DNA of 64,000 nucleotides from Starkeya sp. ORNL1. Lineage in GTDB: Bacteria; Pseudomonadota; Alphaproteobacteria; Rhizobiales; Xanthobacteraceae. The position numbers and the translations under genes were made by a program. This document shows positions 8,752 to 47,761 of the stretch, piece by piece. The DNA lies in contig NZ_CP048834.1 in assembly GCF_012971745.1 (NCBI RefSeq), forward strand, positions 4,712,001 through 4,776,000. Reading direction: 5' to 3'. The notes below the pieces were generated by a model. It saw nothing but the letters and a program-made list of their open reading frames with translations, made no database searches and was not told the DNA's origin. Every line of letters starts with the position of its first letter. The first letter of the stretch is position 1.

Positions 8752-8753
8752 GT

Positions 8754-9894: not shown

Positions 9895-9986
9895 GTGCGG
9901 AGCGTCCCGTCCCGGAGGGCCGACCCCCAAATCCCTCCGGGACATTTTCATCGTCCACCAACAACCAAAAACCAGAGGTTCCTGCC

Positions 9987-10841: not shown

Positions 10842-10855
10842 GGGCGAGGCGAAAT

Positions 10856-10880
10856 TCCCTCTCCCCGACAGGGAGAGGGA
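10856..10880 (+). terminator. Intercistronic hairpin after the binding-protein gene
   Basis: TCCCTCTCCC (10856-10865) and GGGAGAGGGA (10871-10880) form a perfect 10-bp stem with loop CGACA and no following T run. Hairpins at this place in ABC operons often protect the upstream message from 3' decay, or partly terminate, giving more binding protein than permease. Confidence 0.65.
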
Positions 10881-10936
10881 GGCGCCAGCCATGCGCGTCC
10901 GTAAGGAATTGACTCGGGTCAGGGAGCTAATCGGGC

Positions 10937-26410: not shown

Positions 26411-26517
26411 CATGAGGCGCGTCACCCGATCATGCCCCAGGCCAATCGAGTGGGCGTCAGTGCATCAGACCACGTGGGATCAGACGGGTTCAAGCCGTTC
26501 ACCAAAGGACCAGCACA

Positions 26518-28916: not shown

Positions 28917-29727
28917 AGGCTACCGCGTACGGCACTCGTCACTTGCCACAGGTGCCGCATTTTCGACTTCCCAGTTGAGCACCGAGGCGCGAGCGCAGGC
29001 GGTGCGTGTCGCCGTCATAGAACGCTGACGCGACACAGTGTGCTGGACCGGCCGTAGCGGCAGGGCCGGCGAGCCTGGCATAGCGGCGTTCCACTGAGGC
29101 AAATTGCCGCCCGCATGCGTCTGCGGACGTATTGCGTCGCCAGCCTGCGAATACTGACGGAGCGTATAGCGCCGGCATCGTTGAGACAGCCTCGGTACGA
29201 CTATTCCATCTCCCTGCGGCCCGCACTCCCAGACCTCAGTTGAGGCGCTCCATGCCGCATTGCGGAACCTTCCAATGTGGCCAGCCGAATGGTGAAGAGC
29301 GGTTCATGCCTCCGAATATCTCTTTCACGTTCCACGTGTATACACGCATAGTACATGCGCTGCATGCCCCACCGGCATTGCGCTGAGCGTAGTGATAATA
29401 ATGTAATTCCATTCCTACACCGCGGTGGGCTTCCTCGGGATTTCTTCGTGATATATGCTCGGGACTCTGGAATCCTCAATATCGTTTCGAATTTATCGGC
29501 ATGATCTTGGAAGTGGTGTCGCGAGGTGAGGCTGTACTCCGCCCTTCGACGGTGGCAGGGCGGCTGGTTGGGCACGCGCCTTTGGCGGGAAAACGGTCCC
29601 GCTCGCAAGGGCCGGCCTGGGCTTTCGCCTTGCGATACGTCGCCGAGGATCAGAGTTTGACCGTTCGTTCTGACCTCACACCTGTATCGCCAACGGAAGA
29701 CAATTGATGTGAATCTGCGGAGGCTGG
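28917..29727. other. Intergenic region, no gene supported
   Basis: 811 nt between the last glycosyltransferase gene and the acyltransferase gene. Short frames on the minus strand around 28920-29226 are rich in Cys and Arg, but no single frame is convincing. 29300-29500 is A+T-rich and probably holds the promoter of the acyltransferase gene. A decayed gene is possible in the left half. Confidence 0.4.
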
Positions 29728-30870: not shown

Positions 30871-30994
30871 CCCCGCCTCGCGAGCTCCCGGACGATGCCT
30901 GTCCGGCCAACAAATCCGGGCTTCTCGACGCGTGCACGTCGACGGCAAAAGCGGGTGCAAGGGCGGATGCCGCCCCCCACCCGCTTGCCGGATC

Positions 30995-32737
30995 CTAAAG
31001 CCCTGGGCGGGCGATTTCCTCAGGCCAGGTGAGGCTATCGAGATCGTCCAGCACGAACTGCTCCGGCGAAGTCGGCCTGAAGCCGTAATCGGTGTAGAGG
31101 TTCTCGACCAACTGGTTCTTGTTGGTTCGAAGATAGGTGCCGACCAGGCGCTTGCTGCCGCGCCTGCGGAGGAGATCACACATCCCCGCGAAGACGGAAC
31201 GCTCGACGCCGCGGCCGAGCACACGGCAGCTCATCAGCAGGGTGTCGATGTCGGTTGTGTCGCCTTCGTGCTGCAGAATGGTGACGCCGACGAGACCGTA
31301 TTCGCCGAAGCGGTCGGTGACCCGCCAGGCAAGAACGCTTGCCGAGGAATCCTCGATCAGATTCCCGATGTCGTTTTCGGTCTTGCGCCGCGTGGTCAGA
31401 TTGAACTGATTGCTCTTGTTGATGAGTTGGGTAACGCGAGCAATGTGCTCCGGCTTCACCTCGAACAGATCGATGCTCAGCTGAAGTTCCCGGCGAAAAT
31501 CCTCCGGGCTCACGGCGGTCGCGAGATCGCGCCGCTTGCGTTCCTGCAACATCATGTCCGATCGGGCGCGATCTTCGTTGCTGATCTTGTCGCGGTCGAA
31601 ACCACGATACGAGCCGAACTCCCTCGGGAAATGCGGCAGCTCGGACGGAACCAGGATGCTGGTCACCATCGGAAGCGCAGCCCTGACATGCTCGATTTCC
31701 ATCGCGTTGTCGTCGACGAAAACGAAGCTGTCGAGGCCGATATTCAGTTCCCCGGCGAGGCTCGCAATGTTGCTGGGCTTGTCGTTCCAATTGATCCGGG
31801 CGGCGACGACATCGTCGCGCTTCAGCACCATGCCGTCGTGCTTGTCGAAGACTTCCCAGACATCGGCTGCGTTGTTCTTGCTGCAGAGCGCGATCATCAC
31901 GCCCTGGCTGCGCAGCGTCAGCAACTGATGCTGGAAATCCCGGAAAACCGAGCCGGGATGATCTTCGCCAAGTGCGATGCCGGCGAGGCCGTCTTCGCCG
32001 ATGATGCCGCCCCACAATGTGTTGTCGCAATCGACGACGACGCATTTCTTCGATGCGGTCGACTGGGAGCGGATAAGCGCGGCGGCGCTTTCACCGATCG
32101 CATCCCAGAAGGCTTCGCTGTAGGGCTGGCGGTAAAGATACCACTTGCGCCAGTCCATCGAGGCTTCGACGCCGAAATATCGCTGCAACCCGTCGAGGTC
32201 GAGCAGGCCGATATTGTCGATCGCGCGGATGCGCGCGGTCCAGGTCTCGGCCACCTGCTGATGCAGGACGCCGACCGTGGAAACGCTGCTGAGAGAGCGG
32301 ATATCGTGGTCCGGCGAATGGGGGAAGGGCGGGACGGAGCAGATGATGTTTCCGGGGAAGCTCTCGCGCAGGGCCGCGACGGCGTCCGCCAGTTCGTTGA
32401 TCTTTTCCAGCAGCGGCGCCGTGCCTGCGCCACGCAGCGCAGCCTGGAAATCGGGACGGACAAAGTCCTCGATACGCCAGAGCAGCACCATCGCGGCCGG
32501 CGTCTGGTCGGCGTAGTAGATCTGCCAGTTGTGGCACAATTGGAAGATCTGGTTATAGGGGGCGATCGTCACAACCGGAGGTCGCGCCGGGTCATTCACC
32601 AGCCGCGATCCCAGATACGGGGCGATTGGCTCGGCGGTGAAGGTTGCGGCGACGATGATCCGATCCCGGTCGAGGTCCGACGTTTCCACGCCGCGGCACA
32701 ATCTAAGCCAATCAGTTCTGCGTTGCATCAACGACAT
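30995..32737 (-). CDS. FkbH-like HAD-IIIC/GNAT protein
   Basis: A 580-residue FkbH family protein. An N-terminal alpha/beta domain precedes the HAD core VVVDCDNTLWGG (DxDxT nucleophile), with VFVDDN later. The C-terminal domain is GNAT-like (RFGEYGLVGV; SCRVLGRGVE). FkbH proteins load 1,3-bisphosphoglycerate-derived glyceryl units onto an ACP; related ones act in sugar N- or O-acylation. ATG 32737, with CGGAG upstream, is chosen because longer starts would run into the ACP gene, whose stop is at 32781. Operon order is hexapeptide transferase, MaoC-SDR, ACP, FkbH. Confidence 0.85.
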   Translation of the reverse strand: MSLMQRRTDWLRLCRGVETSDLDRDRIIVAATFTAEPIAPYLGSRLVNDPARPPVVTIAPYNQIFQLCHNWQIYYADQTPAAMVLLWRIEDFVRPDFQAALRGAGTAPLLEKINELADAVAALRESFPGNIICSVPPFPHSPDHDIRSLSSVSTVGVLHQQVAETWTARIRAIDNIGLLDLDGLQRYFGVEASMDWRKWYLYRQPYSEAFWDAIGESAAALIRSQSTASKKCVVVDCDNTLWGGIIGEDGLAGIALGEDHPGSVFRDFQHQLLTLRSQGVMIALCSKNNAADVWEVFDKHDGMVLKRDDVVAARINWNDKPSNIASLAGELNIGLDSFVFVDDNAMEIEHVRAALPMVTSILVPSELPHFPREFGSYRGFDRDKISNEDRARSDMMLQERKRRDLATAVSPEDFRRELQLSIDLFEVKPEHIARVTQLINKSNQFNLTTRRKTENDIGNLIEDSSASVLAWRVTDRFGEYGLVGVTILQHEGDTTDIDTLLMSCRVLGRGVERSVFAGMCDLLRRRGSKRLVGTYLRTNKNQLVENLYTDYGFRPTSPEQFVLDDLDSLTWPEEIARPGL

Positions 32738-32780
32738 GAAAGCATCTCCGTCCGACTTAAATGAAACGTCGTCTTCGAAC

Positions 32781-33017
32781 TCAGACGAGCGCGACCTGAC
32801 GTTTCTCGAGCACCGCCCGGACCTTGCCGACATTCTTCATCGTCTCGATCTCGCTGGTGTGCAGCTCGATCTCGAACGTCTCCTCGATCGCTGCGATGAG
32901 GAGCATGTTCGCCAGGCTGTCCCAGGCTTCGGTATTGTCCGGCGACGTCGCATCGCTGATGCTGTCTTCCGGGAGATTAAGCGTCATGGCAAAGATTTCA
33001 GTCAGTTTATCGGTCAT
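32781..33017 (-). CDS. Acyl carrier protein
   Basis: A 78-residue discrete ACP. The phosphopantetheine attachment serine is Ser34 in WDSLANM, and the rest has the expected four-helix acidic pattern (IEETFEIELHTSEIETM). It is not the fatty-acid ACP gene, which normally lies beside fabD/fabG/fabF. It sits 11 nt after the MaoC-SDR gene and 43 nt before fkbH, and should carry the intermediate of this pathway. Confidence 0.9.
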   Translation of the reverse strand: MTDKLTEIFAMTLNLPEDSISDATSPDNTEAWDSLANMLLIAAIEETFEIELHTSEIETMKNVGKVRAVLEKRQVALV

Positions 33018-33028
33018 TTTTTACTCGT

Positions 33029-34504
33029 TCATGGTGTGTTGGGAAGGTTGGGGCGGCGGCTTTTCATGGTGCGGCAGATATCGAGCAGCACCGCGACGGG
33101 ATCGTCTGTCGCGACGTTCATCAAGGTCGCGGTCTGGTCGGTGGGCAGTCGGGGCAGGCGCGACACCGTGACATTCACCTCGTCGTCGTAGCGGTTGAGC
33201 ATCTCGCACACCGCCTCTCCGGCCATCTTGGCCACATAGTATTCGGCGAGATCCTTGAGCGGATTATTCAGGGCATCGCTGGACGGGTAGAAAACGGCAA
33301 GCCCGCCCTTCGCGAGCTGCTTGGCTTCCTCGACGACGCTCAAAAAATTTGTAGTATAATTACTGATAAAACCATCGAGTAGATGATCTTCGAAAAGCCT
33401 CTTCTTGCGCACGAAGATATGGGGCGTCGCAAAGTAGAACATATCTGTGACAGAAATGCCATCGCTGCCCAGTCCGGCAAATGCTTCCGCGGGGCTTGCG
33501 ACATCGAGCCTGATGGCGCTGGCGGCGACACCGTTTTCCCGCATCACCGCAATCGCGGCTTTGGCCTCCTCCTCGCCGCTCCGATAGGTGATCACGACCT
33601 CCGCGCCACCAGCGCCAAGCAGGTTCGCGGTCAAGAGGCCCAACCCGCGCGAGCCGCCCACGATCAGCGCACAGCGGCCGCGAAATTCTCCGTCGGTGAC
33701 CGCCTTGCGGCACGTCGCGAAATCGATCGCGCCGACCCTCGGCCGGACGAAGGTTTCCGAAGAGCCGGACAATGCTTCGCTTTGAAACTGCAATTGGACG
33801 TGGGAAAGCTTGGGCGTCACCCGTTTTGCCAGGAATTGCAGGTCCGAGCCGACGCCATCCAGAAGATTGACGGTCAGCGTCGCGAACATCGAGTGAAGAC
33901 CCGGCACCTCCATGCCGATCGCGTAGGTTATGCCGAGGAGATTGGCGATGCGGTTCGTGCCGTAGGTCTGTGACGCCGCGGGAAAGAAAGCGCGGATTTC
34001 CGCCGGCTTCTGCGGCAAGCCGACCACGCCCTGATAGCCCTGCATCTCCTCGATCGAAAATTCTCTCGGCGAGGTCCGGCAGTGGTCAACCGCCATGGAC
34101 CAGTCGGGATCACCGAATTCCGGGCGCCGCGCCACGAGGCTTATGGTGGTCAGCTGGGTGCCATCGCTGACATAAGTGAGATCCAGCCCGTTCTCCGTCG
34201 GGCGGACTTGCAGGAATAGTCTCTCCCCCAGGAAGACCGGCCGGTGAAACCTTGCGATGATCCGCGCATAAGCCACGGAAGGGAGCAATCCGGATACGGT
34301 CTCGAGAGCCCGAAGGACGAGGTGCATGCCGTGAACAATGGGTTGCCCAAACAAGGTCCGGCGCGCGACCACAGCGTCAAGATGTACCGGGTTGAAATCG
34401 CGCGACAGGCGAGCAAAGGCTTCTTGCCCAGCCTGCTCAAAGGCGCCGAGCTCTAACCCCTCAGTCGGCAACTCGCTGGTCCGCAGCTCATTCGAAACCA
34501 CCAC
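33029..34504 (-). CDS. MaoC-like dehydratase fused to short-chain reductase
   Basis: A 491-residue fusion. The N-terminal hot-dog domain has the hydratase motif RLSRDFNPVHLD with catalytic Asp and His; a second hot-dog-like segment follows (GTNRIANLLGITYAIG). From about residue 280 an SDR domain has LIVGGSRGLG and the catalytic YYVAK. It would reduce a 3-oxoacyl and dehydrate a 3-hydroxyacyl group on the neighbouring ACP. GTG 34504 is chosen because GAGGGG lies five bases upstream; TTG 34519 is an alternative, and a stop lies just before that. Confidence 0.8.
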   Translation of the reverse strand: MVVSNELRTSELPTEGLELGAFEQAGQEAFARLSRDFNPVHLDAVVARRTLFGQPIVHGMHLVLRALETVSGLLPSVAYARIIARFHRPVFLGERLFLQVRPTENGLDLTYVSDGTQLTTISLVARRPEFGDPDWSMAVDHCRTSPREFSIEEMQGYQGVVGLPQKPAEIRAFFPAASQTYGTNRIANLLGITYAIGMEVPGLHSMFATLTVNLLDGVGSDLQFLAKRVTPKLSHVQLQFQSEALSGSSETFVRPRVGAIDFATCRKAVTDGEFRGRCALIVGGSRGLGLLTANLLGAGGAEVVITYRSGEEEAKAAIAVMRENGVAASAIRLDVASPAEAFAGLGSDGISVTDMFYFATPHIFVRKKRLFEDHLLDGFISNYTTNFLSVVEEAKQLAKGGLAVFYPSSDALNNPLKDLAEYYVAKMAGEAVCEMLNRYDDEVNVTVSRLPRLPTDQTATLMNVATDDPVAVLLDICRTMKSRRPNLPNTP

Positions 34505-34537
34505 TACTGCCCCTCGCAATGCTTATTCGTGGAAAGG

Positions 34538-34981
34538 TTACGCACTCGGCAAGCGGTGGCCCAATTTTCCTGTGCGGATATTCGTCTCCACGATGCGCGC
34601 CGGATTTCCGGAAACTACGCTATTGGGAGGCACGTCTTTCATCACGACGGATGCCGCCGCAACGATGCAGTGGTCGCCAATCGTCACGCCGGGATATATT
34701 ATCGATCTCGCACCGATCAGGCAGTTCGAGCCGATCCTGACGTCTTTGTGCTTTCTGTTGACAAAGTCGTGCGTAAGTATGACGGACTCAAACGTCACTG
34801 CCGTATATGATCCTATATGTATTCCCTTCGGATTGGTCTTGTCCAAGCGCGCACTGAAAGAAATCTCGGCACCCTCGCCGATATTCATCCCCCAGACCTT
34901 TCGCAACCAGTTCCTACGAAATCCCCGCACATACGGAGTCAGACCCGTTCTAACGCGTGTAATAAATGGCTTGTTTTGCAT
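34538..34981 (-). CDS. Hexapeptide-repeat acyltransferase (WcaF-like)
   Basis: A 147-residue left-handed beta-helix transferase. The repeats run from [10 protein letters not shown] through [11 protein letters not shown] to [27 protein letters not shown], with the catalytic His in ILTHDF and the closing [10 protein letters not shown]. Family members acetylate sugars using acetyl-CoA; with an ACP pathway next door it may accept an ACP-bound acyl group. It is the first gene of the four-gene minus-strand operon. Confidence 0.85.
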
Positions 34982-35571
34982 TGAGTTCCTCTTTATGCGG
35001 GAATTTCCCTAAAGGACCAAGTTTAACGCGCTCGACTGTGACCTGATTTGAACCTTGTTGTAAGTTCTTCGAGAGTTCGACAATACTTTTTTACTACCGA
35101 AGCGAGACCTTCGCCCGATGTCCGATGAAACCCGCGCATGCGAGCCGTCGAGGTACAACGTCGATCGACATGCCCACGGCTTCGAGTTTCCCGGCAAGGT
35201 CTGACGACGCGCCGCCCCACCCTTTAGTAAGACAGGCTCAACGACGTCCATACGACGCTCCGACAGTTTGCCGGACAAAGTCTATCTTACGGAAGCGGTG
35301 ACGGGGTTGCGGCACATCGCCTTGGGGCAACAGCGCGCGGCTGTTCTAATCGAAGCAGGCCGCCGGATGCTGACGGGCCGACTTGGGTCGCAGTCAGTTA
35401 CTGTGAAGAATTTGCGGAGGCGTTGTCGGCACGCGGCCGCTTTGCGGTCGCGCCGACGAGAAAGGTTCCCGCAAGAATAGAATGATTCTTGCAATCAGAA
35501 AATACTCAAACTATTGAATATAAATAATTTTCCTATCCTTCAAATAGTTCTAAGGGGAAAGGGTTCCAGCC
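34982..35571. other. Intergenic region at the right edge of the lower-G+C block
   Basis: 590 nt without a supported gene. 35480-35560 is strongly A+T-rich. GCAAGAAT (35471-35478) and ATTCTTGC (35485-35492) form a small hairpin. The left part contains the promoter of the hexapeptide transferase operon. No transposase or att-like repeat of the tRNA-Ala 3' end was seen. Confidence 0.45.
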
Positions 35572-37413
35572 TCAGATCTTCGTCAGGATGCGGCCGAGCA
35601 CCCACAAATAGACGACCAGGACAATCGCCCACACGTAATCCGGCACGGCCAGTCCCATGAAGCTCGATGGCTGGCCGTCGATCAGCGCAAGCAAATAGGC
35701 GGCGATGCCGGCCAGCAGGATCGCGATCCCGGGAATGGCCAGGGGCGCCGCCGCTGCGATCGCACGCATCCAGTGGGGATGCCGCGCTACCAGCCGCGGG
35801 GTTGGGATTGCCGCGCCGCGCTCGGGCGCCTCGGCGGTGTCGGCCAACAGGAAGCTCGACATGCCGTCCCACGTATCGGGCCGGATCGCGGCGCTGTGCT
35901 TGCCCCTTATGTAGCGGATCTGCTCGAGTCCCGCGGCAGCCTCGCTGAACCCGCTGTGCCCGGCGGCGCCGAGGCCGCAATGCCGCCCCTGGCCGAAATA
36001 GGAGATCCACTCCAGCGCTTTGGGAACGGTCGCCACCACCCAATCCTGGCTTGCCACATAATTGAGGATCTTGCGGACCTGTGGCGGCTCGCCATTCCTG
36101 CCGGTTGTGAAGTCCGCCCATTTGAAGCGGCTGCTGACCACGCTGCCGGCGAACACCACGCGCTCGAAACGAACGGCGGCGCAGCGGTCGATTGCGGCCG
36201 CGAGCAGATAGGTGCCGTGGCTGTGTCCGACGAAATGGAACCGCGTCCCCTCGGGATAGGTGGCGCGGGCGGTCACATATTGATCGAGGAACCAGCCCAC
36301 GCGCTTGCTGCGCTCGGCGCGCAGCAGGAAGGCGCCCATCGGGAAATAGCCGTATGAGGAGGTGATGGTGTGGCAGGTCTTCCGCTGTTCAATCGCGAAT
36401 GTCTTCAGCCGATTGGCGAGCCGCTTGGTCCAAAAGCCGTAGTCCCTGATGCCGTGGACGATGAAGACGACATCCGCCGGAGCGTGTGGCGTGGGGGCGT
36501 CCGGGTTGTCGGCCGCCGCCAGGGGCTCGGTCGTGACGTGGAGTTCGGCTGCTCTTTCGCCGACCATTTCCGCGATGAAATCCGGCGACATGGCGTGGGC
36601 GGCCAGTTCGTCGGCGCTGCCGGTGAGAGCGAGCTTGAATGCGCGATACCTGCCGTCGCCTGCCGTCCGGTCCCAGAACTGCAGGATCGAGGCGTGGCCC
36701 GATCGCTCGACTTCGAGATGGAAGACCGGCTGATTGGTGGCGATATCGATGTTGTCTCCAGGCGCCACGACATTGTCGAGCGTGCCGATCAGGTTCACCA
36801 CGATCGGCGTGTCCCGTCTGTCGATCTGGCGCTGTATCTTGAGAATCTGCAGGCGCAAGGTCGTCAGGAACGGCGCACCGCGGCGGACATCGAGCACCAG
36901 GAAGTTGCGGCCGCATATATTCTCGATGACATTGCCGAACCATTGCTGGATGCGGATATCCGGACCGACCGGCAGATGCGGATCCCAGCCGCGATTGACC
37001 CCGGCGATAAGTATCAGGCGCTTGATGGAGACGGCCCATGGCCTGGCCTCGGTCAGCGCGAGATCGCCGTTCAATTTCGCACCCCGGGCCTGCACCCACA
37101 CCGCCCGCGCCAGCGCCGCACCGAAACTGTGGCCGACCAGAATGACCTCGCGGTATCTGCCGTTGCCGTAGCCGGTGATCTTCTCGTCGAGATCGGCAAA
37201 AAGCCGTTCGGCAAGATCGACCGCCCTGGCTCTACTTAGAAAATAACGTATCGGCAGGCTTGGAACATAGCAGTCGAAATCCGGATGAATCACGCGTGCT
37301 GCACCCAGGAGGTCAGCCATGCTCCGCGTATCGTCGTGCCAGCCGTGCAGAATGACCAGAAGCCCGGTCGCATTTGCACACGCGTGGAAGCCTGCGTCGC
37401 TGAAGGAGCTCAC
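35572..37413 (-). CDS. Tandem alpha/beta hydrolase with C-terminal membrane helices
   Basis: A 613-residue protein with two complete-looking alpha/beta-hydrolase domains. Domain 1 (about 1-290) has LLVILHGWHDD and the nucleophile elbow LVGHSFGAAL; domain 2 (about 310-530) has VVFIVHGIRDYGF and the elbow FVGHSHGTYL. Two membrane helices (about 552-578 and 594-610) end the protein. The domains differ clearly from each other, so this is a fusion or old duplication. Lipase or esterase activity at the membrane is likely; the substrate is unknown. The start is GTG with AGGAAA nine bases upstream. Confidence 0.7.
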   Translation of the reverse strand: MSSFSDAGFHACANATGLLVILHGWHDDTRSMADLLGAARVIHPDFDCYVPSLPIRYFLSRARAVDLAERLFADLDEKITGYGNGRYREVILVGHSFGAALARAVWVQARGAKLNGDLALTEARPWAVSIKRLILIAGVNRGWDPHLPVGPDIRIQQWFGNVIENICGRNFLVLDVRRGAPFLTTLRLQILKIQRQIDRRDTPIVVNLIGTLDNVVAPGDNIDIATNQPVFHLEVERSGHASILQFWDRTAGDGRYRAFKLALTGSADELAAHAMSPDFIAEMVGERAAELHVTTEPLAAADNPDAPTPHAPADVVFIVHGIRDYGFWTKRLANRLKTFAIEQRKTCHTITSSYGYFPMGAFLLRAERSKRVGWFLDQYVTARATYPEGTRFHFVGHSHGTYLLAAAIDRCAAVRFERVVFAGSVVSSRFKWADFTTGRNGEPPQVRKILNYVASQDWVVATVPKALEWISYFGQGRHCGLGAAGHSGFSEAAAGLEQIRYIRGKHSAAIRPDTWDGMSSFLLADTAEAPERGAAIPTPRLVARHPHWMRAIAAAAPLAIPGIAILLAGIAAYLLALIDGQPSSFMGLAVPDYVWAIVLVVYLWVLGRILTKI

Positions 37414-37575: not shown

Positions 37576-38016
37576 TCACCCGCAATATCTCGCCGAGAGT
37601 ATGTCGCGGATCATCAGCGCCGCCGGGCGCCGCAAGGGGTATTCGTCGCCGTTGCGGCTCGTTCTCACCGCGAAGTCGACGATGACCTTCTTGATGTCGC
37701 CGAGTGAAGGCCGGTCATTGAAGCAGCGTGCAGGAAATGTGCGGGTGCCGAACATGCCTTCCACGACGCCCGTTATATAGGCGTCGCACCACTCCCCGTC
37801 GCTGGCCGAGCCCTGGCAAAGCTGCAGCAGCTTCAGGCCGGTGGTCGATTTCTCGCCCGCATCCATCTTCGGGCTGGGGGAATCTGCCTTCAGGCCAGGG
37901 GAGTCCGCCTTCGGGCTCGGGATCGGCGGGCCGATCAAGGTGAGGATCAGCACGGCGCGTCCGATCCACCGTGCCATTTGCGCGTTCTCGTGCCGTCGAG
38001 CAGGATTTCCAAGCAT
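37576..38016 (-). CDS. Rap1a/Tai-like exported protein
   Basis: A 146-residue exported protein. ATG 38016 is chosen because GGGAGG lies about eight bases upstream; the signal peptide is basic (ARRHENAQMARWIGR) and then AVLILTLIGPP. A short linker with KADSP repeats leads to a C-terminal domain LLQLCQG...WCDAYITGVVEG...ARCF...DIL..RYCG. Its Cys spacing and wording match the Rap1a/Tai family, whose founders are immunity proteins against type VI amidase effectors, though most members are orphans. No effector gene is visible nearby. Confidence 0.6.
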   Translation of the reverse strand: MLGNPARRHENAQMARWIGRAVLILTLIGPPIPSPKADSPGLKADSPSPKMDAGEKSTTGLKLLQLCQGSASDGEWCDAYITGVVEGMFGTRTFPARCFNDRPSLGDIKKVIVDFAVRTSRNGDEYPLRRPAALMIRDILSARYCG

Positions 38017-38073
38017 AGCGTCGCCTCCCGTCACCACTGTCTGGTGTGAGTGGCGGGGAAAGAACGCCTCCAC

Positions 38074-38933: not shown

Positions 38934-40616
38934 ATGCGTCATGGAAATTCGTTCGACTGCCCCTGGTCCCGGTCCCCGACCGGCATCCAATCCCGCGAAG
39001 GCTCCGCCGGCGATGTCCGGACGGAAATCTCCCGGACCTGCCTGTTCCCCGATCTGATGGATCAGCCGATCCCCTGGCTCGGCACCGGTCCGGACGACAC
39101 GCGCGCGGCGCTGGAGGCGATCACCGACAGCATGGTCGGCGGCAGCGACCAGCCGTTTGGGCTGCCGCCCAATCCGATTCCGGCGGGATACACCTATCTC
39201 GGCCAGTTCATCTTCCATGACATGGTCTTCAGCCGGGCGCTGCGCAAACAGATCGGCAGCGAGGCGACGCTGGCGCTCGACCTCAACTCGGTCTATGGCG
39301 TGGCGCCGGCCTTCGAGCCGCATCTCTACGAGACGCCGGACGATTCCGCCGGACCCGCGGCGCGCTGCCGTTTCCTGATCGGCCTGACCGACCGCTCGAC
39401 CTCGCCGCCGGACCTCACCGACGCGATGGCGGGCACGGCACGCGACCTGCCGCGCATCGACAGTTCCAAGGGCTTCGCCGACATGCGCGGCGTTGCCGGC
39501 CGCTCCGAGCCGATCGTGGCTGATCCGCGCAATGACGACCATCTGGTGCTGTCGCAACTGCATTGCCTGTTCCTGCAATTGCACAACCGGATGGCGGATG
39601 TGCTGCTGGCACGTGGCCTCGCCTCCGACAGCGTGTTCACCACGGTGCGGCGCTTCATCACCCGCTGCTTCCGCCACGCGGTGCTGCACGACTATCTGCG
39701 CCACATGATGGATCCCGCGATCTATGCGCTGCTGCTGGACAATGGGGATCGCGCGGCACTGTTCGGCGCGGCCGGCAGCCTGCAGACGGCGCCGGTGGAG
39801 TTCACCTTCGGCACCGCGCGCTTCGGCCATGCGATGATCCGGAGCGAATATCTGATCAACCAGCTGCCCGGCGGCGGCAAGGCGGATGTCGGCCTCGTGC
39901 TGCAGATGTCGAGCAGCCGGGCGCCGCGCCGGGTGCCGATCCCGACGCACTGGAGCGTCAACTGGTCGAACTTCCTCACCCTCGATGGCTCCAGCCCGCA
40001 GGCGGCGCGGCGCATCAGCCCGTTCCTCAACGAGACGCTCGCCCGCCGTCCGCTCGCGATCGACGATGACGGCACGCCGATGTCGATCGTGTTCCAGGAC
40101 ATGTGGCGCTGCTACATTCTCGGCCTGCCGAGCGGGCAGGATGTCGCGACCGAGATCGGCGCCCGCCTGGCGCCGGCACACCAGGACATCAAGGTGCCGG
40201 TGCTGAGCGGCGACGCCATGCTGCCTCCGGCCAAATTCGCCGCGGTCTATGGCTATTCGGCGCGCGCGCTCGCAAGCGCGATCCGCGCCAATCCGGGCTT
40301 CATGACGGCGACGCCGCTCTCCTACTATCTCCTTCAGGAGGCCGCCATACTCGGCGACGACGGCGCCCATCTCGGCCCGGTCGGCTCCTACATATTGGCG
40401 CACACCATGGTGCATGCGCTCGGCCTCGCCGGGCAGCATTTCGCTTCGGAAGATGCCGCCGTCGCGCAGGCCGCGGGCATCTCGACCTTTGCGGATCTGT
40501 TCGGCCTGCTCGATCGCAGCCGGATCACGGATTCGCAGCTTTTCTCCATAGTGAGCACGCGACCGGCTGCTGGTGGATCCGGACACCACAGACGAACCGG
40601 AACCACCGGAAACTGA
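38934..40616 (+). CDS. Animal-type haem peroxidase
   Basis: A 560-residue protein of the peroxidase/cyclooxygenase superfamily. YLGQFIFHDM holds the distal His (about 95) in the GQF-x-x-HD motif; VADPRNDDH with LHCLFLQLHNRMA (about 196-220) matches the ADxRxxE and LHNR signatures, with Asp where mammalian enzymes have Glu; TARFGHAMIRSEY holds the proximal His (about 299). There is no signal peptide, so it is probably cytosolic. Bacterial members oxidise halides, fatty acids or aromatic side chains. It is 60 nt upstream of the leader-like small protein gene and may be its operon partner. Confidence 0.85.
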   Translation: MRHGNSFDCPWSRSPTGIQSREGSAGDVRTEISRTCLFPDLMDQPIPWLGTGPDDTRAALEAITDSMVGGSDQPFGLPPNPIPAGYTYLGQFIFHDMVFSRALRKQIGSEATLALDLNSVYGVAPAFEPHLYETPDDSAGPAARCRFLIGLTDRSTSPPDLTDAMAGTARDLPRIDSSKGFADMRGVAGRSEPIVADPRNDDHLVLSQLHCLFLQLHNRMADVLLARGLASDSVFTTVRRFITRCFRHAVLHDYLRHMMDPAIYALLLDNGDRAALFGAAGSLQTAPVEFTFGTARFGHAMIRSEYLINQLPGGGKADVGLVLQMSSSRAPRRVPIPTHWSVNWSNFLTLDGSSPQAARRISPFLNETLARRPLAIDDDGTPMSIVFQDMWRCYILGLPSGQDVATEIGARLAPAHQDIKVPVLSGDAMLPPAKFAAVYGYSARALASAIRANPGFMTATPLSYYLLQEAAILGDDGAHLGPVGSYILAHTMVHALGLAGQHFASEDAAVAQAAGISTFADLFGLLDRSRITDSQLFSIVSTRPAAGGSGHHRRTGTTGN

Positions 40617-40676
40617 CTTGCGCAAACTGACTTGCGGAAACTGACCTGATTTCGAAACCCTAGGGGAGAGCGGACC

Positions 40677-41093
40677 ATGGCGAAACTGAAGATCACGGAC
40701 GGCGAAGGGCTCGGCAAATATCTCTACGAGATGCTGAGCGACAAGGATTTGCGCAAGAAGTTCAAGGCCGACCCGAAGGCGGAGCTCGCGCAATTCGTCG
40801 AGCTGCTCGATCCGACCAAGAAATGGGACGACGTCACCATCATCCCGCACTTCGACAAGGAGAATGATATCAATCTGATCATTCCCTGGCTGGGTGACAT
40901 CCAGCAGACGCTGGACGAGATCGAGCACTCCACGCTGACGAAGCCGGCCTATGGCTATCCGGATTACTGCACGCCGGGCAATCCGAACTATGTCGATCCC
41001 GAGGCCGGAAAGACCTTGGCGGCGCGCAAGAAGAGCCGCCTCCGGGCCTATTATTTCCGGCTGAGCGACTACATCATGACGCGTTGTAAATAG
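40677..41093 (+). CDS. Small protein with NHLP-type leader-like N-terminus (possible RiPP precursor)
   Basis: A 138-residue protein. Residues 16-71 resemble the nitrile-hydratase-alpha-like leader (NHLP) of some ribosomal peptide precursors: DKDLRKKFKADPKAELAQF corresponds to the FR..LLADP.AAL block, and DVTIIPHFDKENDINLIIPW to the closing V.VVEDT.D..HLVLP strand pair. The remaining 67 residues are unlike nitrile hydratase: AYGYPDYCTPGNPNYVDP, a basic helix (ARKKSRLRAYYFRLSDY) and a C-terminal MTRCK. Two Cys and several Thr/Ser could be substrates for the YcaO enzyme at 43424. A GGGGAGAG site precedes the ATG. The alternative is a peroxidase partner protein. Confidence 0.5.
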   Translation: MAKLKITDGEGLGKYLYEMLSDKDLRKKFKADPKAELAQFVELLDPTKKWDDVTIIPHFDKENDINLIIPWLGDIQQTLDEIEHSTLTKPAYGYPDYCTPGNPNYVDPEAGKTLAARKKSRLRAYYFRLSDYIMTRCK

Positions 41094-41156
41094 AGGCTGG
41101 CAAATAGAGGCCGGCAAACCGGCGTCGGTAAACCGGCGCCGCGTCGCCCCCGACGA

Positions 41157-43235
41157 TCACATCTCGATGGAGAGGCCGCGCCGCCGGCCACGCGGCGGCG
41201 CCGGCGGCTCGGTGCTCAGCCAAGAGGCGACGGCGCGGTCCATGCCATCGGCGAGTAGCTTGCGGTCGCGCTCGCGGCGCAGCGGGAAGATGGTCTTGAA
41301 CCAGTTCACCAGCGTGCTGTCCGAAACCGGCTTCTGGCCGGCCCAGCGCTCGCGCATGCTGGTGACGAACTGCCCGGCATATTGGGCGGCTTCCACCTTC
41401 TGCCCGAGCAGAGCGTGGCTGGCTGCCGCCCATCCCGCGATATCGGGGAAGATGTCGGGCACCTGCTCGATGGAGCGCAGGCAGTCCTTATAGTCGCCGG
41501 CGAGGAACGCGATGGTGGAGCGATAGCCGAAGAAATACGGCTCGCGGATCGCGCAGATATCGAAGGCGCGGTCGCTCAGCTGCCGGGCCTGGCGGTGATT
41601 GCCCATGAAGCTGGAGGCGAGCGCATAGGCGATCAAGGTGCTGGGGTTCGCCGGATTGAGATCGTGGGCGAGCCGGAAATGCAGCTCCGCGCAATCCCAG
41701 CGCCGCTCCAGCAAATGGCTCCAGGCGAGATTGGCCTGGGAGCGATGGTCGAGATTGTCGAGCCGCAGCGCGTGCTGGGCGAGCTGCAAGGCGCGCTCGC
41801 GGTCGGCCGCGTCGTTCTCCCATCCCGGCAGCACGATCCAGCGCGAATTCAGCACGGCGGCGAGGCTCGAATAGGCGTGCGGCAGCTGCGGCGCCAGTTC
41901 GATGGCTCGCTCATAGCAGCGGATCGCGGCTTCCTCGGTCTCCGGCTGCCAGAGCACCGCGAGCTTCTGGCCGTCGAGCCAGAAATCATAGGCAGCTGCC
42001 TGGATCGGAGAGACCTTCTTGTTGCGGTGCAGGCGGGCCGTGGCGATGGCGACATTGAGATGCGAGGCCAGGCGCGCGCTCATATTGTTGAACACCGCCG
42101 TCCATTCGTTCGGCTTTGCCCGGAAGCGTTCGGCTACCAGCAGTTCCTTGTCGAAACTGTCATGGCAGCTGATGTGGAAGTCGCTGGACTTGGCGTCGGT
42201 CGGCGGCTCGACAAAGAAGGCGAACTCGATGCCCTGCGAGGCCAGCCGCTCCAGCAATGCGTCGGGCTGGTCGATCTCTCCGGCCGACTCCACCTCGACC
42301 CGGAACACCGACCATTCGCGGAAGCGGCCGAGGGTCGCGGCCAGCTCGGTGGCGAAGGCGCCGGCTATGTGGTCCGAATAGCTGCCGCCCTGCGCGCTCG
42401 GCGCCTGGATGACGGCGATGGTCGGGGTCTCCGGCCGCGAGTGGCCGGCGCGGGGCTTTTCGCGCATGTGCGCGGCGGGCTCGGCCTTGTGCGCGTCCTT
42501 GGCAGGACGCGAGGCGCGCTCGCGCAGCATGTCGACGAGGCCGAGCAGGTTGCGCGACGGTTCGATCTCGTATTCATCGGCCAGATGCCCGCGATAGGTC
42601 TCGAAATAGGCGATCGCCGGCTGCAGGCCGCCGGTCTCGAACAGCGCGATCATCTGGATTTCCGCCGCGCGTTCGGAGAACGGATCAAGCTTCAGGATCG
42701 ACTTGGCGATGATGGCTTCGTCGGCGGAGGTGATGTCCTCCTCGTCGACCAGGCCGAGCAATTCGTTGACGGTTGCCTCCGACCAATTGCTGCGCCGGAT
42801 CTGCAGCCATTTGTAGAAGAGCGGGTCGCATTCATCGAGGCCCTGGAGCAGGGCCGGTTCCGGCGCCTCGAGCCAGCGCGCAGCGTTTGCCGGATTGCGC
42901 GCGCGTATATCGGCGGCGAGCAGGTCGATGTCCCGATCGATCCGGCTGAGATCGATCGCGATGTCCATCTTGTCGGCCTGGAACACGGCGCCGGCATCAC
43001 CGACCGGCAGGTTGCGTATTTCCTTTATGCATTGGCGCAGCGAGGCGCGCGCATGCTCCTCGTCGCTCTCGCTCCACAATACGGTGGCGAGGCGGGCGCG
43101 GCTCTCGCGCGCATGCTCGTTCAGCAGCAGATAGGAGATCAGACCGCAGGTCTTGCGCCCCTTGGGAGTAATGTCCCGTCCCGACGGATCGAACAGCCTG
43201 AACGGCCCGATCAACCTTGCCAGACATCTTCCCAA
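41157..43235 (-). CDS. SARP-like regulator (wHTH-BTAD-TPR)
   Basis: A 692-residue regulator. Residues 1-90 are an OmpR-like winged helix (ARLIGPFRLFDPSGRDITPKG; ASLRQCIKEIR), about 95-235 a bacterial transcriptional activator domain with its helical repeats (SERAAEIQMIALFETGG), and about 420-620 TPR helices (YSSLAAVLNSRWIVLPG onward). No AAA ATPase is present. SARP-type proteins commonly activate natural-product genes. It is divergent from the ycaO-like gene (188 nt) and convergent with the small-protein gene. The start is uncertain: no ATG is available, TTG 43235 or TTG 43214 are used. Confidence 0.75.
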   Translation of the reverse strand: MGRCLARLIGPFRLFDPSGRDITPKGRKTCGLISYLLLNEHARESRARLATVLWSESDEEHARASLRQCIKEIRNLPVGDAGAVFQADKMDIAIDLSRIDRDIDLLAADIRARNPANAARWLEAPEPALLQGLDECDPLFYKWLQIRRSNWSEATVNELLGLVDEEDITSADEAIIAKSILKLDPFSERAAEIQMIALFETGGLQPAIAYFETYRGHLADEYEIEPSRNLLGLVDMLRERASRPAKDAHKAEPAAHMREKPRAGHSRPETPTIAVIQAPSAQGGSYSDHIAGAFATELAATLGRFREWSVFRVEVESAGEIDQPDALLERLASQGIEFAFFVEPPTDAKSSDFHISCHDSFDKELLVAERFRAKPNEWTAVFNNMSARLASHLNVAIATARLHRNKKVSPIQAAAYDFWLDGQKLAVLWQPETEEAAIRCYERAIELAPQLPHAYSSLAAVLNSRWIVLPGWENDAADRERALQLAQHALRLDNLDHRSQANLAWSHLLERRWDCAELHFRLAHDLNPANPSTLIAYALASSFMGNHRQARQLSDRAFDICAIREPYFFGYRSTIAFLAGDYKDCLRSIEQVPDIFPDIAGWAAASHALLGQKVEAAQYAGQFVTSMRERWAGQKPVSDSTLVNWFKTIFPLRRERDRKLLADGMDRAVASWLSTEPPAPPRGRRRGLSIEM

Positions 43236-43423
43236 CTTCCAGCCTCGCGTGTGGGCGACATGGCGTCTTACCCATTGAAGGGATTCGTCTCAAGGGTTTG
43301 CTGCTTCGATGATGCGCTTCGTTGCTTTCTGTCGAGACGTCGCCATGGCTCATACCATATGTCCCGGCAAACATTTACGATGTAATCAAGCCACCGCACC
43401 CTTGCCGGGATACTGGAGCGTGC

Positions 43424-44812
43424 ATGACCGAAGCTGATGGACAGCGCCCGCTCATCTTGTCCCAACGCCATGGCCGTATTGCCGAATCAGATGCGCCTGC
43501 GGCGCCGGACGCAGATCCGGGGCGCCGCGACTGTGATGTTGGAGAGGTCGCGGATCTCCTTGCTGCGGGTTTCCTGCGCCCGGCGCGGGGGGATGGCGCT
43601 GTGGCCTGGGCCGGCGCCGATGGTGGGGAATCCGACCGCCGCCTGCTGCGGTTGCTCGACCGTTTCGACCTGACGGTTCACGTCCTGCCTGCCTCCGGCG
43701 TCACCATCGCGCTCACCTCGGCGCACCTGCCGGTCGGGGAGGGCGGGGAACAGGTGAGTTTTGTCGGCAAGGGCTTCGATCCAGGCGATGCGGTGCGCCG
43801 TTGCCTCGGCGAGATGGCGGAGTTCCACAGCTGGCTATACGACCCCGCGCAGGATCGCGCGCGGGTCGCGCTCGAACCGCCTCAGCCGAGGCTGCCCGGT
43901 GTCGCGGAACTGCTGGATTGCCGGGTCGGCTGGTCGCGCCAGGATGAGGCGGCGCTGCAGGCGCGCGGCTGGAGCCGCGTCGTGCGCCTGACGGGCGCCG
44001 AGCCGTTCTCGACCTGGTGCCCCGCCCCATTGTGCTTCGGCCGTTATATTGCCCCTGATCGGGCCGCCCCCGAGGCGGGCCTCGACAATAGCGGCTGTGC
44101 GGCCGGGCGGAGCCGGGACGAGGCGCTGGAAGGCGCCTTGCTGGAGGCCATAGAGCGCGATGCGACCGGCCTGTGGTGGCAGCGCGGCATCGCCCGCCCT
44201 GGCATCGATCCGCATGGCATTGCGTCAGCTCGTCTGCGGCACGGCCTCGAGGCGCATGACGACGAGACCGGGCGGCGATGCTGGTTCCTTGATCTGACGA
44301 CCGATATCGCAATTCCCGTCGTCGCCGCCATTTCGATCGAGGATGACGGTACGCTCCCGGCGCTGGGTGTCGCCTGCCGCCCGCACCTTGCTGATGCGAT
44401 GGAGGGTGCCTTCCTCGAAATGGTGCAGTCGGAGCTGGCGCTGGCAGCGCTGCTGCAGCGGCTCGACGAAGGCGAGCCCTCGCCTGGGGATGCCGAACTT
44501 GCACGATGGTATGAGCTGGTCGATCCCGAACACGCGCCGTGGCTGGCGCCGCAGGGCGTCGCCGGACATCTCCCGACACGCGGCATGGGAACGCCGCTCG
44601 AGCGGCTCGCCGCCTGCGGCTTTGACGCCTATGCAATGGAGCTCACGCGCGCCGCGCTAGGCATTCCGGTGGTGAAGGTTATCGTGCCCGGCCTCGCGCA
44701 TTTCCGCCGACGGCAGGGGGCGGGCCGGCTCGCGGGCGTGCCGGAGCAGTTCGGGTGGCGATCCTGGCTGCCGGGAGATGGCACGTTCAACCCGACGCCG
44801 CTGCTGATCTGA
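43424..44812 (+). CDS. YcaO-domain cyclodehydratase-like protein
   Basis: A 462-residue YcaO protein covering the full domain. FVGKGFDPGDAVRRCLGEMAEF (about 113-134) is the first family block; NSGCAAGRSRDEALEGALLEAIERDA (222-247) is the ATP-binding block with its Glu and Arg residues; FLEMVQSEL and IPVVKVIVPGL follow, and it ends in NPTPLLI, close to the Pro-rich tails of azoline-forming YcaOs. YcaO enzymes use ATP to make azolines, thioamides or amidines in peptides. ATG 43424 has GGAG upstream. No E1-like partner, TfuA or dehydrogenase is adjacent. Confidence 0.85.
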   Translation: MTEADGQRPLILSQRHGRIAESDAPAAPDADPGRRDCDVGEVADLLAAGFLRPARGDGAVAWAGADGGESDRRLLRLLDRFDLTVHVLPASGVTIALTSAHLPVGEGGEQVSFVGKGFDPGDAVRRCLGEMAEFHSWLYDPAQDRARVALEPPQPRLPGVAELLDCRVGWSRQDEAALQARGWSRVVRLTGAEPFSTWCPAPLCFGRYIAPDRAAPEAGLDNSGCAAGRSRDEALEGALLEAIERDATGLWWQRGIARPGIDPHGIASARLRHGLEAHDDETGRRCWFLDLTTDIAIPVVAAISIEDDGTLPALGVACRPHLADAMEGAFLEMVQSELALAALLQRLDEGEPSPGDAELARWYELVDPEHAPWLAPQGVAGHLPTRGMGTPLERLAACGFDAYAMELTRAALGIPVVKVIVPGLAHFRRRQGAGRLAGVPEQFGWRSWLPGDGTFNPTPLLI

Positions 44813-45181: not shown

Positions 45182-47761
45182 ATGGCGCAAGGATCGATGG
45201 CGGACCAACCTTTGCGCGTAGACCTTACGAATTGTGACCGTGAGCCTATTCACATCGTAGGTTCAATCCAGCCTATCGGTTTCCTGATCGCCGTCAGTGC
45301 CGACTGGATCATTGCCCGCGTGTCGGAGAATGTCGGGAAGTTCCTGGGGAGAAGCTCGGCCGAACTGATCGGCCAACCACTGGCCGCGTTCATACCGTCG
45401 CGCGCGGTGCACGATCTGCGTAATCGCGTGATCATATTGCGCGGCCCCGACGCCGTGGAACGGCTGTTCGGTTGCCACCTTGTGGAGGGTGCGCCGCCCT
45501 TCGACATCGCAATCCATTTGTCGGGCGGCCAGATCGTAATCGAGGCCGAGCCCGGCTCGGCCGAGAATGGGGACGCCACGGGCATTGTGCGCTCGATGGT
45601 CGGGAGGCTCGACCAGACCACCGAGCTTGGTGGCTTCTATCGCGAGGGGGCCCGGCAGGTCAGGGCGCTGCTCGGCTATGACCGCGTCATGGTCTATAAA
45701 TTCGCGGCAGACGGCTCGGGCGAGGTGGTGGCCGAGGCTTGCAAGGCCGGCATAGGCAGCTTTTTCGGACTGCATTATCCGGCGAGCGACATTCCCCAGC
45801 AGGCACGCCAGCTCTACCGGCGCAATATACTGCGCATCATCGGCGACGTGAATGCCGATGCCGTGCGCATTGTTCCGGAACTCGACGAAGAGGGCAGGCC
45901 ACTCGACCTATCGCTGTCTGTGCTTCGCTCGGTCTCGCCGATCCACATCGAATATCTGAAGAACATGGGCGTGCGCGCCTCGCTGTCCATCTCGATCATC
46001 GTCGAGGATCAATTGTGGGGGCTATTTGCCTGCCACAATTACGCGCCTCGGTGCCCGACGTTCGAACGTCGCTCCGTGAGCGAACTCTTCGCGCAGATGT
46101 TTTCCATGCGCCTGGAGAGCCGCGAGCGGCGGGCCATAGTCGAGTATGAGCGGCGAGCCCGCGACATATCCGATCAGTTGCTCGGGGCCGTTGCCTCCGA
46201 CGAGACTTTGCTCAATGACCCGGACTGGCTGGGCGATATCCTGACCAACGCGATTCCGGCCGATGGTGTCGGCGTCTGGATCAACGGGAATTATGCGTTC
46301 TCGGGCACGACTCCACCGACCGATGGCTTTCGCCGGGTGATCCGCGCCCTAAACGGGACGGCGGCCGGCAAGGTGTATGCGACAGATCACATCGCCGCCC
46401 TGGTTCCCGGCGGGGAAGAGTTTGCCTCGCTCGCCGCCGGCATGCTCGCCATTCCGATTTCGCGCTCGCCTCGCGACTACATCGTGCTGTTCCGCTCGGA
46501 GCTGACCCGATCCGTGCGTTGGGCAGGCGATCCCCACAAGCCGATCGAGTATGGCCCGAACGGACCTCGCCTGACGCCGCGCGAGAGCTTTCAGGAGTGG
46601 AAGGAACTGGTCGAGGGACGATCGGCGCCCTTCACGTCGTCCGAATTGCGCGTTGCGGAGACGCTGCGCGCGACGCTTATCGAGGTGGTGTTGCGCCTTG
46701 CGGACGAGGCTGCCGCCGAACGTCATCAGGCCAATGCGCGACAGGAGTTGCTGATCGCCGAACTCAACCATCGAGTCCGCAACATACTGGGCGTCATTCG
46801 CGGCCTGATCCGCCAGTCGCAGCCGGAGGAGGAGGCGGTGAAGGAGTTCGTGAAGCTGGTGGACGGGCGTATCCATGCGCTGGCGCGCGCCCATAACCAG
46901 ATCACCGACGATCACTGGGGGCCGGCTCCGCTGCAAGCGCTCATCGACGCGGAGGCCGCGGCCTTCGCCGCGGAGCGTCAGAACTCCATCGTTTCGAGCG
47001 GAGACCCCGTCCTTCTCAATCCGCAGGCCTATTCGACGATGGCGCTCGTGCTGCACGAGCTCGTCACCAATTCCGCGAAATATGGCAGTCTGTCCGACGG
47101 GGGGCGGGTGCTTATCGAATGGCACCGCAACAATGTTGGCGACCTGATGCTCGATTGGCAGGAGGCCGGCGGGCCTCCCGTTACGCCACCAAGCCGGCGC
47201 GGCTTCGGCACCACCATCATCGACCGCTCGGTGCCATACGATCTGGGTGGGACCGCATCCATTGAGTATGCCGAGGGCGGCGTGCGTGCGAATTTCCGCA
47301 TCCCCGCGAGGCATGTCTCCGAGCCACGCTCGTTCGCGGGGCCGGCAATCAAGCTCCCCGGCCCGACCCAGTTGCACAAGCCCGCGCCGCCACCGGACCT
47401 CCTCAGAGGCAGGACGGTACTGATCGTCGAGGACAGCCTGATCATCGCGCTCGATGCCGAGGATATCGTCTCGCGGCTCGGTGCGGCCAATGTCACGACC
47501 GTCTCGACGATCGAGGCCGCGCTGGACAGTCTCGATGGCGGTACGCCGTCGGTCGCGATCCTGGACATCAATCTCGGCGACCAGACCAGTTTCCCGATTG
47601 CCGACCGGCTGCTCGACCGCAATGTGCCGTTCCTGTTCGCGACCGGCTATGGCGAGCAGGCGAAACTGCCGATGGAGCATCGCGCCCGCCCGGTGGTGCA
47701 GAAGCCCTATACGCTGGAAAATCTTGCTCGGTCGCTTGGCGATCTGCTCGGCCTGCGCTGA
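45182..47761 (+). CDS. bphP: Bacteriophytochrome-type HWE/HisKA2 kinase with receiver domain
   Basis: An 859-residue photoreceptor kinase. Cys18 (LTNCDREPIHI) is the biliverdin attachment site; the PAS, GAF (with the PASDIP motif and LSVLRSVSPIHIEYL) and PHY domains follow to about 500. The kinase box is LIAELNHRVRNILGVIRGL, an HWE/HisKA2 type, and a receiver domain (VLIVEDSLIIALDAEDIV; AILDINLGD) closes the protein. Phosphotransfer would be light-controlled in the red/far-red. The ATG at 45197, with AAGGA upstream, is an alternative start. No haem oxygenase gene (bphO) lies next to it in this window. Confidence 0.9.
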   Translation: MAQGSMADQPLRVDLTNCDREPIHIVGSIQPIGFLIAVSADWIIARVSENVGKFLGRSSAELIGQPLAAFIPSRAVHDLRNRVIILRGPDAVERLFGCHLVEGAPPFDIAIHLSGGQIVIEAEPGSAENGDATGIVRSMVGRLDQTTELGGFYREGARQVRALLGYDRVMVYKFAADGSGEVVAEACKAGIGSFFGLHYPASDIPQQARQLYRRNILRIIGDVNADAVRIVPELDEEGRPLDLSLSVLRSVSPIHIEYLKNMGVRASLSISIIVEDQLWGLFACHNYAPRCPTFERRSVSELFAQMFSMRLESRERRAIVEYERRARDISDQLLGAVASDETLLNDPDWLGDILTNAIPADGVGVWINGNYAFSGTTPPTDGFRRVIRALNGTAAGKVYATDHIAALVPGGEEFASLAAGMLAIPISRSPRDYIVLFRSELTRSVRWAGDPHKPIEYGPNGPRLTPRESFQEWKELVEGRSAPFTSSELRVAETLRATLIEVVLRLADEAAAERHQANARQELLIAELNHRVRNILGVIRGLIRQSQPEEEAVKEFVKLVDGRIHALARAHNQITDDHWGPAPLQALIDAEAAAFAAERQNSIVSSGDPVLLNPQAYSTMALVLHELVTNSAKYGSLSDGGRVLIEWHRNNVGDLMLDWQEAGGPPVTPPSRRGFGTTIIDRSVPYDLGGTASIEYAEGGVRANFRIPARHVSEPRSFAGPAIKLPGPTQLHKPAPPPDLLRGRTVLIVEDSLIIALDAEDIVSRLGAANVTTVSTIEAALDSLDGGTPSVAILDINLGDQTSFPIADRLLDRNVPFLFATGYGEQAKLPMEHRARPVVQKPYTLENLARSLGDLLGLR

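Follow-up and report, generated by a model that had tools for sequence, protein, structure and literature searches.

In one account of ribosomally synthesised and post-translationally modified peptides (RiPPs), NHLP leaders direct a LynD-like, azoline-forming YcaO enzyme to cysteines of the core (−18 Da), and a flavin mononucleotide (FMN) oxidase then takes the azoline to a thiazole (−20 Da) (PMC12455567). NHLP precursors are elsewhere described as carrying hypervariable cores (PMC4603692). Here we describe a locus in a window of 64,000 nucleotides from Starkeya sp. ORNL1 (contig NZ_CP048834.1, positions 4,712,001 to 4,776,000), in which genes for a small protein with an NHLP-like leader and for a LynD-like YcaO stand together with genes for an animal-type haem peroxidase and a BTAD-TPR (SARP/AfsR-like) regulator. 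These four genes are a real cassette that recurs in many alphaproteobacteria. We lean, by a modest measure, towards reading it as a minimal RiPP-type cassette, in which the YcaO would cyclodehydrate a near-terminal cysteine of the small protein, the peroxidase would oxidise the product or a neighbouring tyrosine, and the modified protein would probably be retained.

The peroxidase gene (38934..40616, plus strand; Pfam PF03098), which has an alternative TTG start at 38820, is followed by the gene for the 138-residue small protein that we propose as the substrate (40677..41093, plus strand), with an NHLP-like leader at approximately residues 1-84 and a conserved C-terminal core. The regulator gene (41157..43235, minus strand; Pfam BTAD and TPR) lies next and is divergent from ycaO (43424..44812, plus strand), whose product is a stand-alone YcaO, apparently of the azoline-forming LynD/TruD/MusD type by Pfam and family profile. 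The intergenic gaps along the set are 60, 63 and 188 nt, and purine-rich stretches precede the start codons of the small-protein gene and ycaO. The four open frames, and the 60-nt gap between peroxidase and small protein, are as reported in the first-pass annotation, which had been made from the sequence of the stretch. Three YcaO genes are present in the genome, which consists of one contig of 6.29 Mb.

A recurrent set of four genes

Using the small protein, the YcaO and the peroxidase as starting points, we found all four genes in 15 loci beyond the window, making 16 in total. A tblastn search of the small protein against plasmids revealed the peroxidase, small protein, regulator and YcaO in identical order and orientation, at 33-40 % identity, on Mesorhizobium huakuii plasmid pMhuNZP2235a, while the closest small protein found, 94 % identical, belongs to a Xanthobacteraceae metagenome-assembled genome (L006). 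The small-protein profile led to L015 (genome G476), YcaO and peroxidase matches on one Rhodobacteraceae plasmid (QY30) led to L011, YcaO profiles across the class and phylum led to L049, L050, L052, L053, L061 and L070-L074, and peroxidase matches led to L140, on a Paroceanicella plasmid. The YcaO of L052 is interrupted by the contig end, and this locus is still counted among the 16. The YcaO places came in two sets: from the first 28, one was the window, seven were left, and 20 were fetched with their flanks, yielding five cassettes; from the second 31, two belong to the window genome and the remaining 29 gave 26 fetched regions, five of them with cassettes. Weak small-protein matches in G209, G266 and G484 were dropped, the regions concerned (L016-L018) giving no tblastn match to any cassette gene. 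Neither YcaO nor regulator occurs in the stretches around two viral-contig peroxidases (L095, L096).

We clustered the called genes of the 15 loci other than L140 (blastp, 1e-8), some of whose stretches are short where contigs end. This grouped the regulator from 15/15 loci, the YcaO from 15/15 and the peroxidase from 14/15; the L011 peroxidase is hidden in the gene calls behind a longer opposite-strand frame, and was plainly detected in a separate search. The small proteins fall into families of 5, 4 and 2 loci. No further gene family is shared by more than two of the clustered loci, given the short stretches, and no protease, exporter, E1-like gene or FMN azoline dehydrogenase recurs among them, which agrees with the earlier remark that an E1-like partner and an exporter are missing here. 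Across the 16 loci, the distances between loci correlate among YcaO, peroxidase and regulator (r 0.84-0.86; 0/5000 permutations as high), and r falls to 0.59-0.67 once near pairs are removed. Thus the three genes have been inherited together, and because the set of four recurs in distant genomes, we conclude that it is beyond chance.

As a test on unseen loci, a profile of seven small proteins (A13) was run against 397 genomes of the order, where it matched 28 places in 26 genomes. Without the four seed loci and their genomes, there remained 24 places, spread over 22 genomes and 16 genera, and these were fetched as 23 stretches. All 23 contain a YcaO, 21 the regulator, 19 the peroxidase and 17 all four genes. 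The regulator is missing from the stretches of L189, where the contig ends close by, and L190; in L188-L190 the YcaO lies 3.4-5.5 kb away from the small protein; and in L169 the YcaO is present as a mere 285-nt frame. The genome of L169 (G138) has a split locus, with peroxidase, small protein, regulator and this short ycaO frame in one place and the longer ycaO (L069) 1.3 Mb off. L177 (6923-7842) has a tandem pair of small proteins that share the C-terminal motif in one cassette. Together with the 16 full loci, the 17 of 23 unseen stretches contradict the possibility, raised with the first-pass annotation, that the four genes are not co-conserved.

The subtype of small protein seen in the window is rare, since a search with this protein alone in 149 genomes of the family matched only the window's own (1/149), and a single-protein scan of genome contigs found one relative, that of L006.

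The small protein and its C-terminal cysteine

Curated models give no match to the window small protein, whether in Pfam (to E 0.1), NCBIfam (to E 10) or PHROGs, and neither the NHLP (TIGR03793) nor the Nif11 models match it or eight cassette relatives up to E 10. Comparison of profiles with hhalign gives a different answer: residues 1-84 of the window group align with a profile of seven NHLP sequences from two genomes at 89.7 % (score 41.3; best of 100 shuffles 18.3), and the L049/L050 small proteins score 43.0 against the same profile, which 0/100 shuffles reach (at most 18.7). Thus the NHLP-like N-terminus first read from the letters finds no support in curated single-sequence scans and is upheld by profile-profile comparison. 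Small proteins from other groups are only 16-22 % identical to that of the window (13 aligned), yet the subfamilies are related: the profile of the window group can be aligned with that of A13 along the greater part of both (92.9 %, score 45.7, where the highest of 100 column shuffles gave 21.1). A search of the small-protein profile against the PDB returned chance-level matches at best (E 0.59). Sub-threshold matches to IniB_NTERM (5e-5, L015) and EF-hand (Pfam 0.0056, below cut-off; L011, 12536-13087, on the QY30 plasmid) were not taken as identities.

The C-terminus is where the small proteins agree most. A cysteine lies within the last four residues of 40/40 of them (16 in the first set, 24 unseen), and is penultimate in 13/16 of the first cassettes and 24/24 of the unseen set; the exceptions are L061 (C-G-P) and L049 and L050 (C-A-x-C). 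The commonest tail motif is R-[VILF]-[GSA]-DY-x-x-x-x-C-X. In the window the conserved stretch is RLRAYYFRLSDYIMTRCK (41037..41093, plus strand, stop codon included), and its penultimate cysteine is C137, in ...SDYIMTRCK. Among the other called genes of the 15 clustered loci, cysteine is penultimate in 7/215 and within the last four residues in 11/215. Homology, annotation or a place behind the peroxidase gene singled out 12 of the first 16 small proteins, every one of which has cysteine as its penultimate residue; for L071, where several frames could have been chosen, it was the one immediately after the peroxidase.

As the sole widely kept cysteine, in a protein with an NHLP-like leader and encoded beside a LynD-like YcaO, this residue is the obvious site of modification. 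Two cysteines had been put forward as targets, those of MTRCK and DYCTPGNPNY. We retain the first and set aside the second: C137 is near-terminal and widely kept, while the position of C98, the DYCTPGNPNY cysteine, is kept only in L006 and L015 among 13 aligned proteins. Therefore, from conservation, the target is most likely C137 and not C98.

Conservation within each subfamily runs the length of the small protein, and no Gly-Gly cleavage site is seen. Along with the want of a recurring protease or exporter, these features could suit a small protein that is a partner of the enzymes rather than their substrate, such as a chaperone or recognition subunit guiding the YcaO to the peroxidase. However, four genomes retain the small protein and YcaO with no such peroxidase, no other residue is kept as widely as the near-terminal cysteine, and the leader resembles NHLP, so that we see only a slim chance of this.

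A further alternative is an ordinary secreted azole natural product of the NHLP type, with its protease and exporter elsewhere in the genome. The LynD-like YcaO and the NHLP-like leader would fit such a product, and unlinked exporters occur in other RiPPs; our exporter and protease negatives cover the cassette surroundings, and no genome-wide search for unlinked exporters was made. However, no Gly-Gly precedes the core, and the core is conserved, unlike the hypervariable NHLP cores described in PMC4603692; a secreted product of this kind is, in our judgement, improbable. From the conserved core, the missing Gly-Gly and the absence of a recurring protease or exporter nearby, we therefore propose that the product is probably a modified protein retained by the cell. 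The original idea of a RiPP locus, with the small protein as substrate and the YcaO as its maturase, survives as likely, in the form of a RiPP-like locus whose product is probably not an ordinary secreted natural product.

The YcaO, the peroxidase and the regulator

The window YcaO matches the Pfam family at 2.9e-46 and TIGR03604 at 9.3e-36 (123.5 bits, under the 219-bit cut-off), and the profile of the cassette YcaO family is closest to LynD (5e-67), TruD (7e-66) and MusD (3e-60). Residues E130 and E133 are kept in 15/15 cassette YcaOs (that of L052 being cut by the contig end), and E241, E244 and R245 in 16/16; we take these residues to be the ATP/Mg site. The window protein ends NPTPLLI. 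In a tree built from 57 YcaO domains, all 15 cassette members and 15 of 16 long proteins (over 650 aa, taken as E1-YcaO fusions by their length) fall on one side of a branch with 100/99 support, and on the opposite side lie the YcaOs that we call TfuA-type. Thirteen of the 15 cassette members cluster with the YcaOs of L054, L069 and L075 (91/79, which is not firm), while L049 and L050 cluster with the long YcaOs (91/81). On these profile and tree results, the cassette YcaO appears to be of the azoline-forming D-protein kind.

YcaO enzymes are known for the formation of azolines, thioamides and amidines, and it must therefore be asked whether a thioamide or amidine is made at the tail instead of an azoline. 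YcaO-TfuA sets with a like type of regulator exist in these genomes, one of them (L019) in the window genome itself, and a proline-rich end is missing from many cassette YcaOs. On the other hand, in the tree and by profile the cassette YcaO sides with the azoline formers of LynD type, away from the TfuA-type, no recurring gene is fit for TfuA or for a sulphur donor, and the invariant cysteine suits azoline formation. We thus regard a thioamide or amidine as improbable and continue with the azoline.

The YcaOs of L069, L075 and L054 belong to the cassette clade, and no peroxidase occurs in the stretches fetched, that of L054 ending at the contig edge. L075 (12113-12700) and L054 (1121-1411) encode small proteins ending GCR and CGCAD, with a YcaO and what reads as a cyclase-type regulator, and these two loci are possibly sister systems of the cassette.

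The window peroxidase matches the Pfam An_peroxidase family (PF03098) at 2e-9 (37 bits, cut-off 25), and 10/10 other cassette peroxidases scanned are over this cut-off. Gln91, His95, Arg199 and His299 are kept in 16/16, and by myeloperoxidase numbering we take them to be the distal Gln and His, the catalytic Arg and the proximal His; lactoperoxidase and eosinophil peroxidase can be aligned with the stretches around Arg199 and His299. In a set of 31 sequences, 12/16 cassette peroxidases form their own clade (98/98).

Animal-type peroxidases oxidise tyrosine, and the tyrosines of Y-x-x-P and of DY are invariant in seven A13 and four A14 small proteins. This could mean that the YcaO modifies the cysteine while the peroxidase acts on these tyrosines, giving dityrosine, a Tyr-Cys thioether or halogenated tyrosine. 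However, the tails of L049 and L050 have no tyrosine, and roughly where DY would be those of L011 and L071 carry Phe or Ile; all four loci nevertheless keep the peroxidase, which makes this unlikely in our view. As to the first-pass suggestion that the peroxidase modifies tyrosine, a role for the enzyme in modification holds up as a possibility, while tyrosine as its site sits poorly with the L049 and L050 tails. We keep oxidation of the YcaO product as the proposed peroxidase step.

The window regulator has a BTAD domain over the cut-off (4.4e-6) and TPRs, and a regulator homologue is found in 16/16 cassettes. A winged-helix domain had also been called at its N-terminus, where we detect the DNA-binding domain weakly (Trans_reg_C 0.067, below cut-off); the BTAD and TPR assignments are confirmed. 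The L011 regulator additionally carries a class III nucleotide cyclase domain.

A proposed scheme and its likeness to known systems

The scheme that we propose would run as follows. The BTAD-TPR regulator would control the cassette. The small protein would combine a recognition domain of NHLP-like type with a tail that ends in Cys-X and usually has Arg-hydrophobic-[Gly/Ser/Ala]-Asp-Tyr before it. The YcaO, as a LynD-like ATP-dependent cyclodehydratase with no recognisable E1-like half, would bind it and activate the backbone amide before the near-terminal cysteine, giving a thiazoline (−18 Da). The haem peroxidase, where present, would then oxidise the thiazoline, most simply to a thiazole (−20 Da in all), and so would occupy the place of the FMN dehydrogenase of other pathways. 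The modified protein would probably remain whole inside the cell and may serve there in redox or metal chemistry or in signalling. Of all this, the genes and their joint inheritance, the likeness of the leader, the conserved Cys tail and the retained active-site residues are observed, whereas that the small protein is the substrate, the chemistry and its order, and the fate and role of the product are inferred.

Several results weigh against this reading. In four unseen loci of one genus (L173-L176, in G316, G290, G337 and G453) the genomes have no peroxidase-profile match at E 1e-5 and keep the YcaO, regulator and small protein, so that the peroxidase step would not always be needed; some of the unseen loci, moreover, are not independent of one another, their 22 genomes belonging to 16 genera. 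Few cassette YcaOs have a proline-rich, LynD-like end. No RiPP recognition element (RRE) or E1-like model matched ten YcaOs (NCBIfam) or the window YcaO (Pfam), although such a search could miss an RRE that has degenerated within the first 100 residues, and the L140 YcaO is very divergent (NCBIfam best 0.013), with several conserved residues altered, including D246. The leader similarity is uneven as well, being weak for the A13 subfamily (probability 6, score 22.2 against a best shuffle of 16.3) and marginal for the L011/L071 pair (18.4 against 17.7), which compared with the window group is itself indistinct from chance (4/100 shuffles as high); the predicted small-protein structure (two sequences, mean pLDDT 51, pTM 0.35) is too poor to indicate a leader fold. 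Finally, the cysteine helped in recognising the small proteins of L011, L049, L050 and L061, and since the A13 profile contains the cysteine motif, the 24/24 penultimate cysteines of the unseen set are partly the product of selection.

Because L173-L176 keep the other three genes, the small protein, YcaO and regulator seem to form the core of the system, and the peroxidase seems to be a common, dispensable addition. In the two of these loci that we read (L173, L174), a gene that we take to be antiporter-like replaces the peroxidase.

Neighbouring genes were also recorded. Ahead of the cassette, at 22001-36000 of the window, G+C is mostly 0.55-0.60 as against ~0.65, and towards its end this stretch has genes that read as SDR-like and hexapeptide-transferase-like. 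A Rap1a-immunity-like protein (37576-38073, minus strand; Pfam 1.2e-7) is encoded two genes from the peroxidase, and a relative also adjoins the cassette in L006. Directly downstream of ycaO is a gene for a bacteriophytochrome with HWE histidine kinase and response-regulator domains (45182-47761). Elsewhere, a Thalassospira marina plasmid (L012, 2882-13665) has lanM, a thiocillin-family precursor, a TOMM leader-binding YcaO protein, a P450 and an S53 peptidase in a row, and a Spirosoma plasmid (L131, 2833-6671) encodes a free-standing haem peroxidase, and behind this gene come members of the YegP and ThiF families and a small hypothetical protein.

In the literature that we searched, which covers subscription journals thinly, we found no description of a YcaO paired with an animal-type haem peroxidase, nor of a RiPP-type role for that peroxidase family. 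The cassette thus joins two enzyme families with no reported pairing in that literature, and would point to protein modification as a possible task of haem peroxidases in bacteria. With one substrate, one conserved cysteine and a YcaO that has no usual partner, it is an unusually simple system for asking how a YcaO finds its targets, and it offers a way to ask whether YcaO-modified proteins can be cellular parts rather than secreted products. More tentatively, and with some doubt, we suggest a new class of modified bacterial proteins, in which a Cys-X tail borne by an NHLP-like domain is heterocyclised by a stand-alone YcaO and usually finished by a peroxidase, the protein being retained with a built-in redox, metal or signalling group.

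How far, then, does the cassette resemble known systems? Its peroxidases share PF03098 and the active-site His, Gln and Arg with lactoperoxidase, eosinophil peroxidase, myeloperoxidase and peroxinectin, but differ from mammalian-type haem peroxidases in forming a bacterial subgroup, most of them in a clade of their own. YcaO-TfuA loci likewise combine a YcaO, a small protein and a similar kind of BTAD-TPR regulator. One of them is the second YcaO locus of the window genome (L019; G000:C1:5727001-5746000, 3199-11385), which has a BTAD-TPR-like regulator, an 80-aa protein ending ...AAAHMSC and a YcaO, along with genes that we take to be multicopper-oxidase-like and TfuA-like. However, YcaO-TfuA loci have YcaOs of another clade and small proteins of another family with no common C-terminal cysteine, and a peroxidase-like frame is found only in the L084 stretch (weak, 1e-8, ~4.6 kb away). 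A common terminal cysteine in TfuA-type loci, prompted by the 80-residue protein of L019, was rejected, the small proteins of L083, L086 and L093 not ending in Cys.

Among solved YcaO domains the closest are LynD and TruD, whose chains have 775 and 781 residues; complete cassette YcaOs have ~360-524, with only the YcaO half recognised, and the NPTPLLI end in the window compares with NPTPM at the end of the LynD match. The cassette is like the MprE/MprC/MprD system (PMC12455567) in its NHLP-type leader, its LynD/MusD-kind YcaO and cysteine as the expected site. It differs in that we detect no E1-like or RRE part and no recurring FMN oxidase, with an animal-type peroxidase instead, and in that its small protein has a conserved Cys-X tail and a leader missed by the TIGR03793 model. 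Judged from sequence, then, the leader and YcaO are those of a YcaO-modified RiPP of the NHLP type, while several of the features that define that kind were looked for and not found in the cassette.

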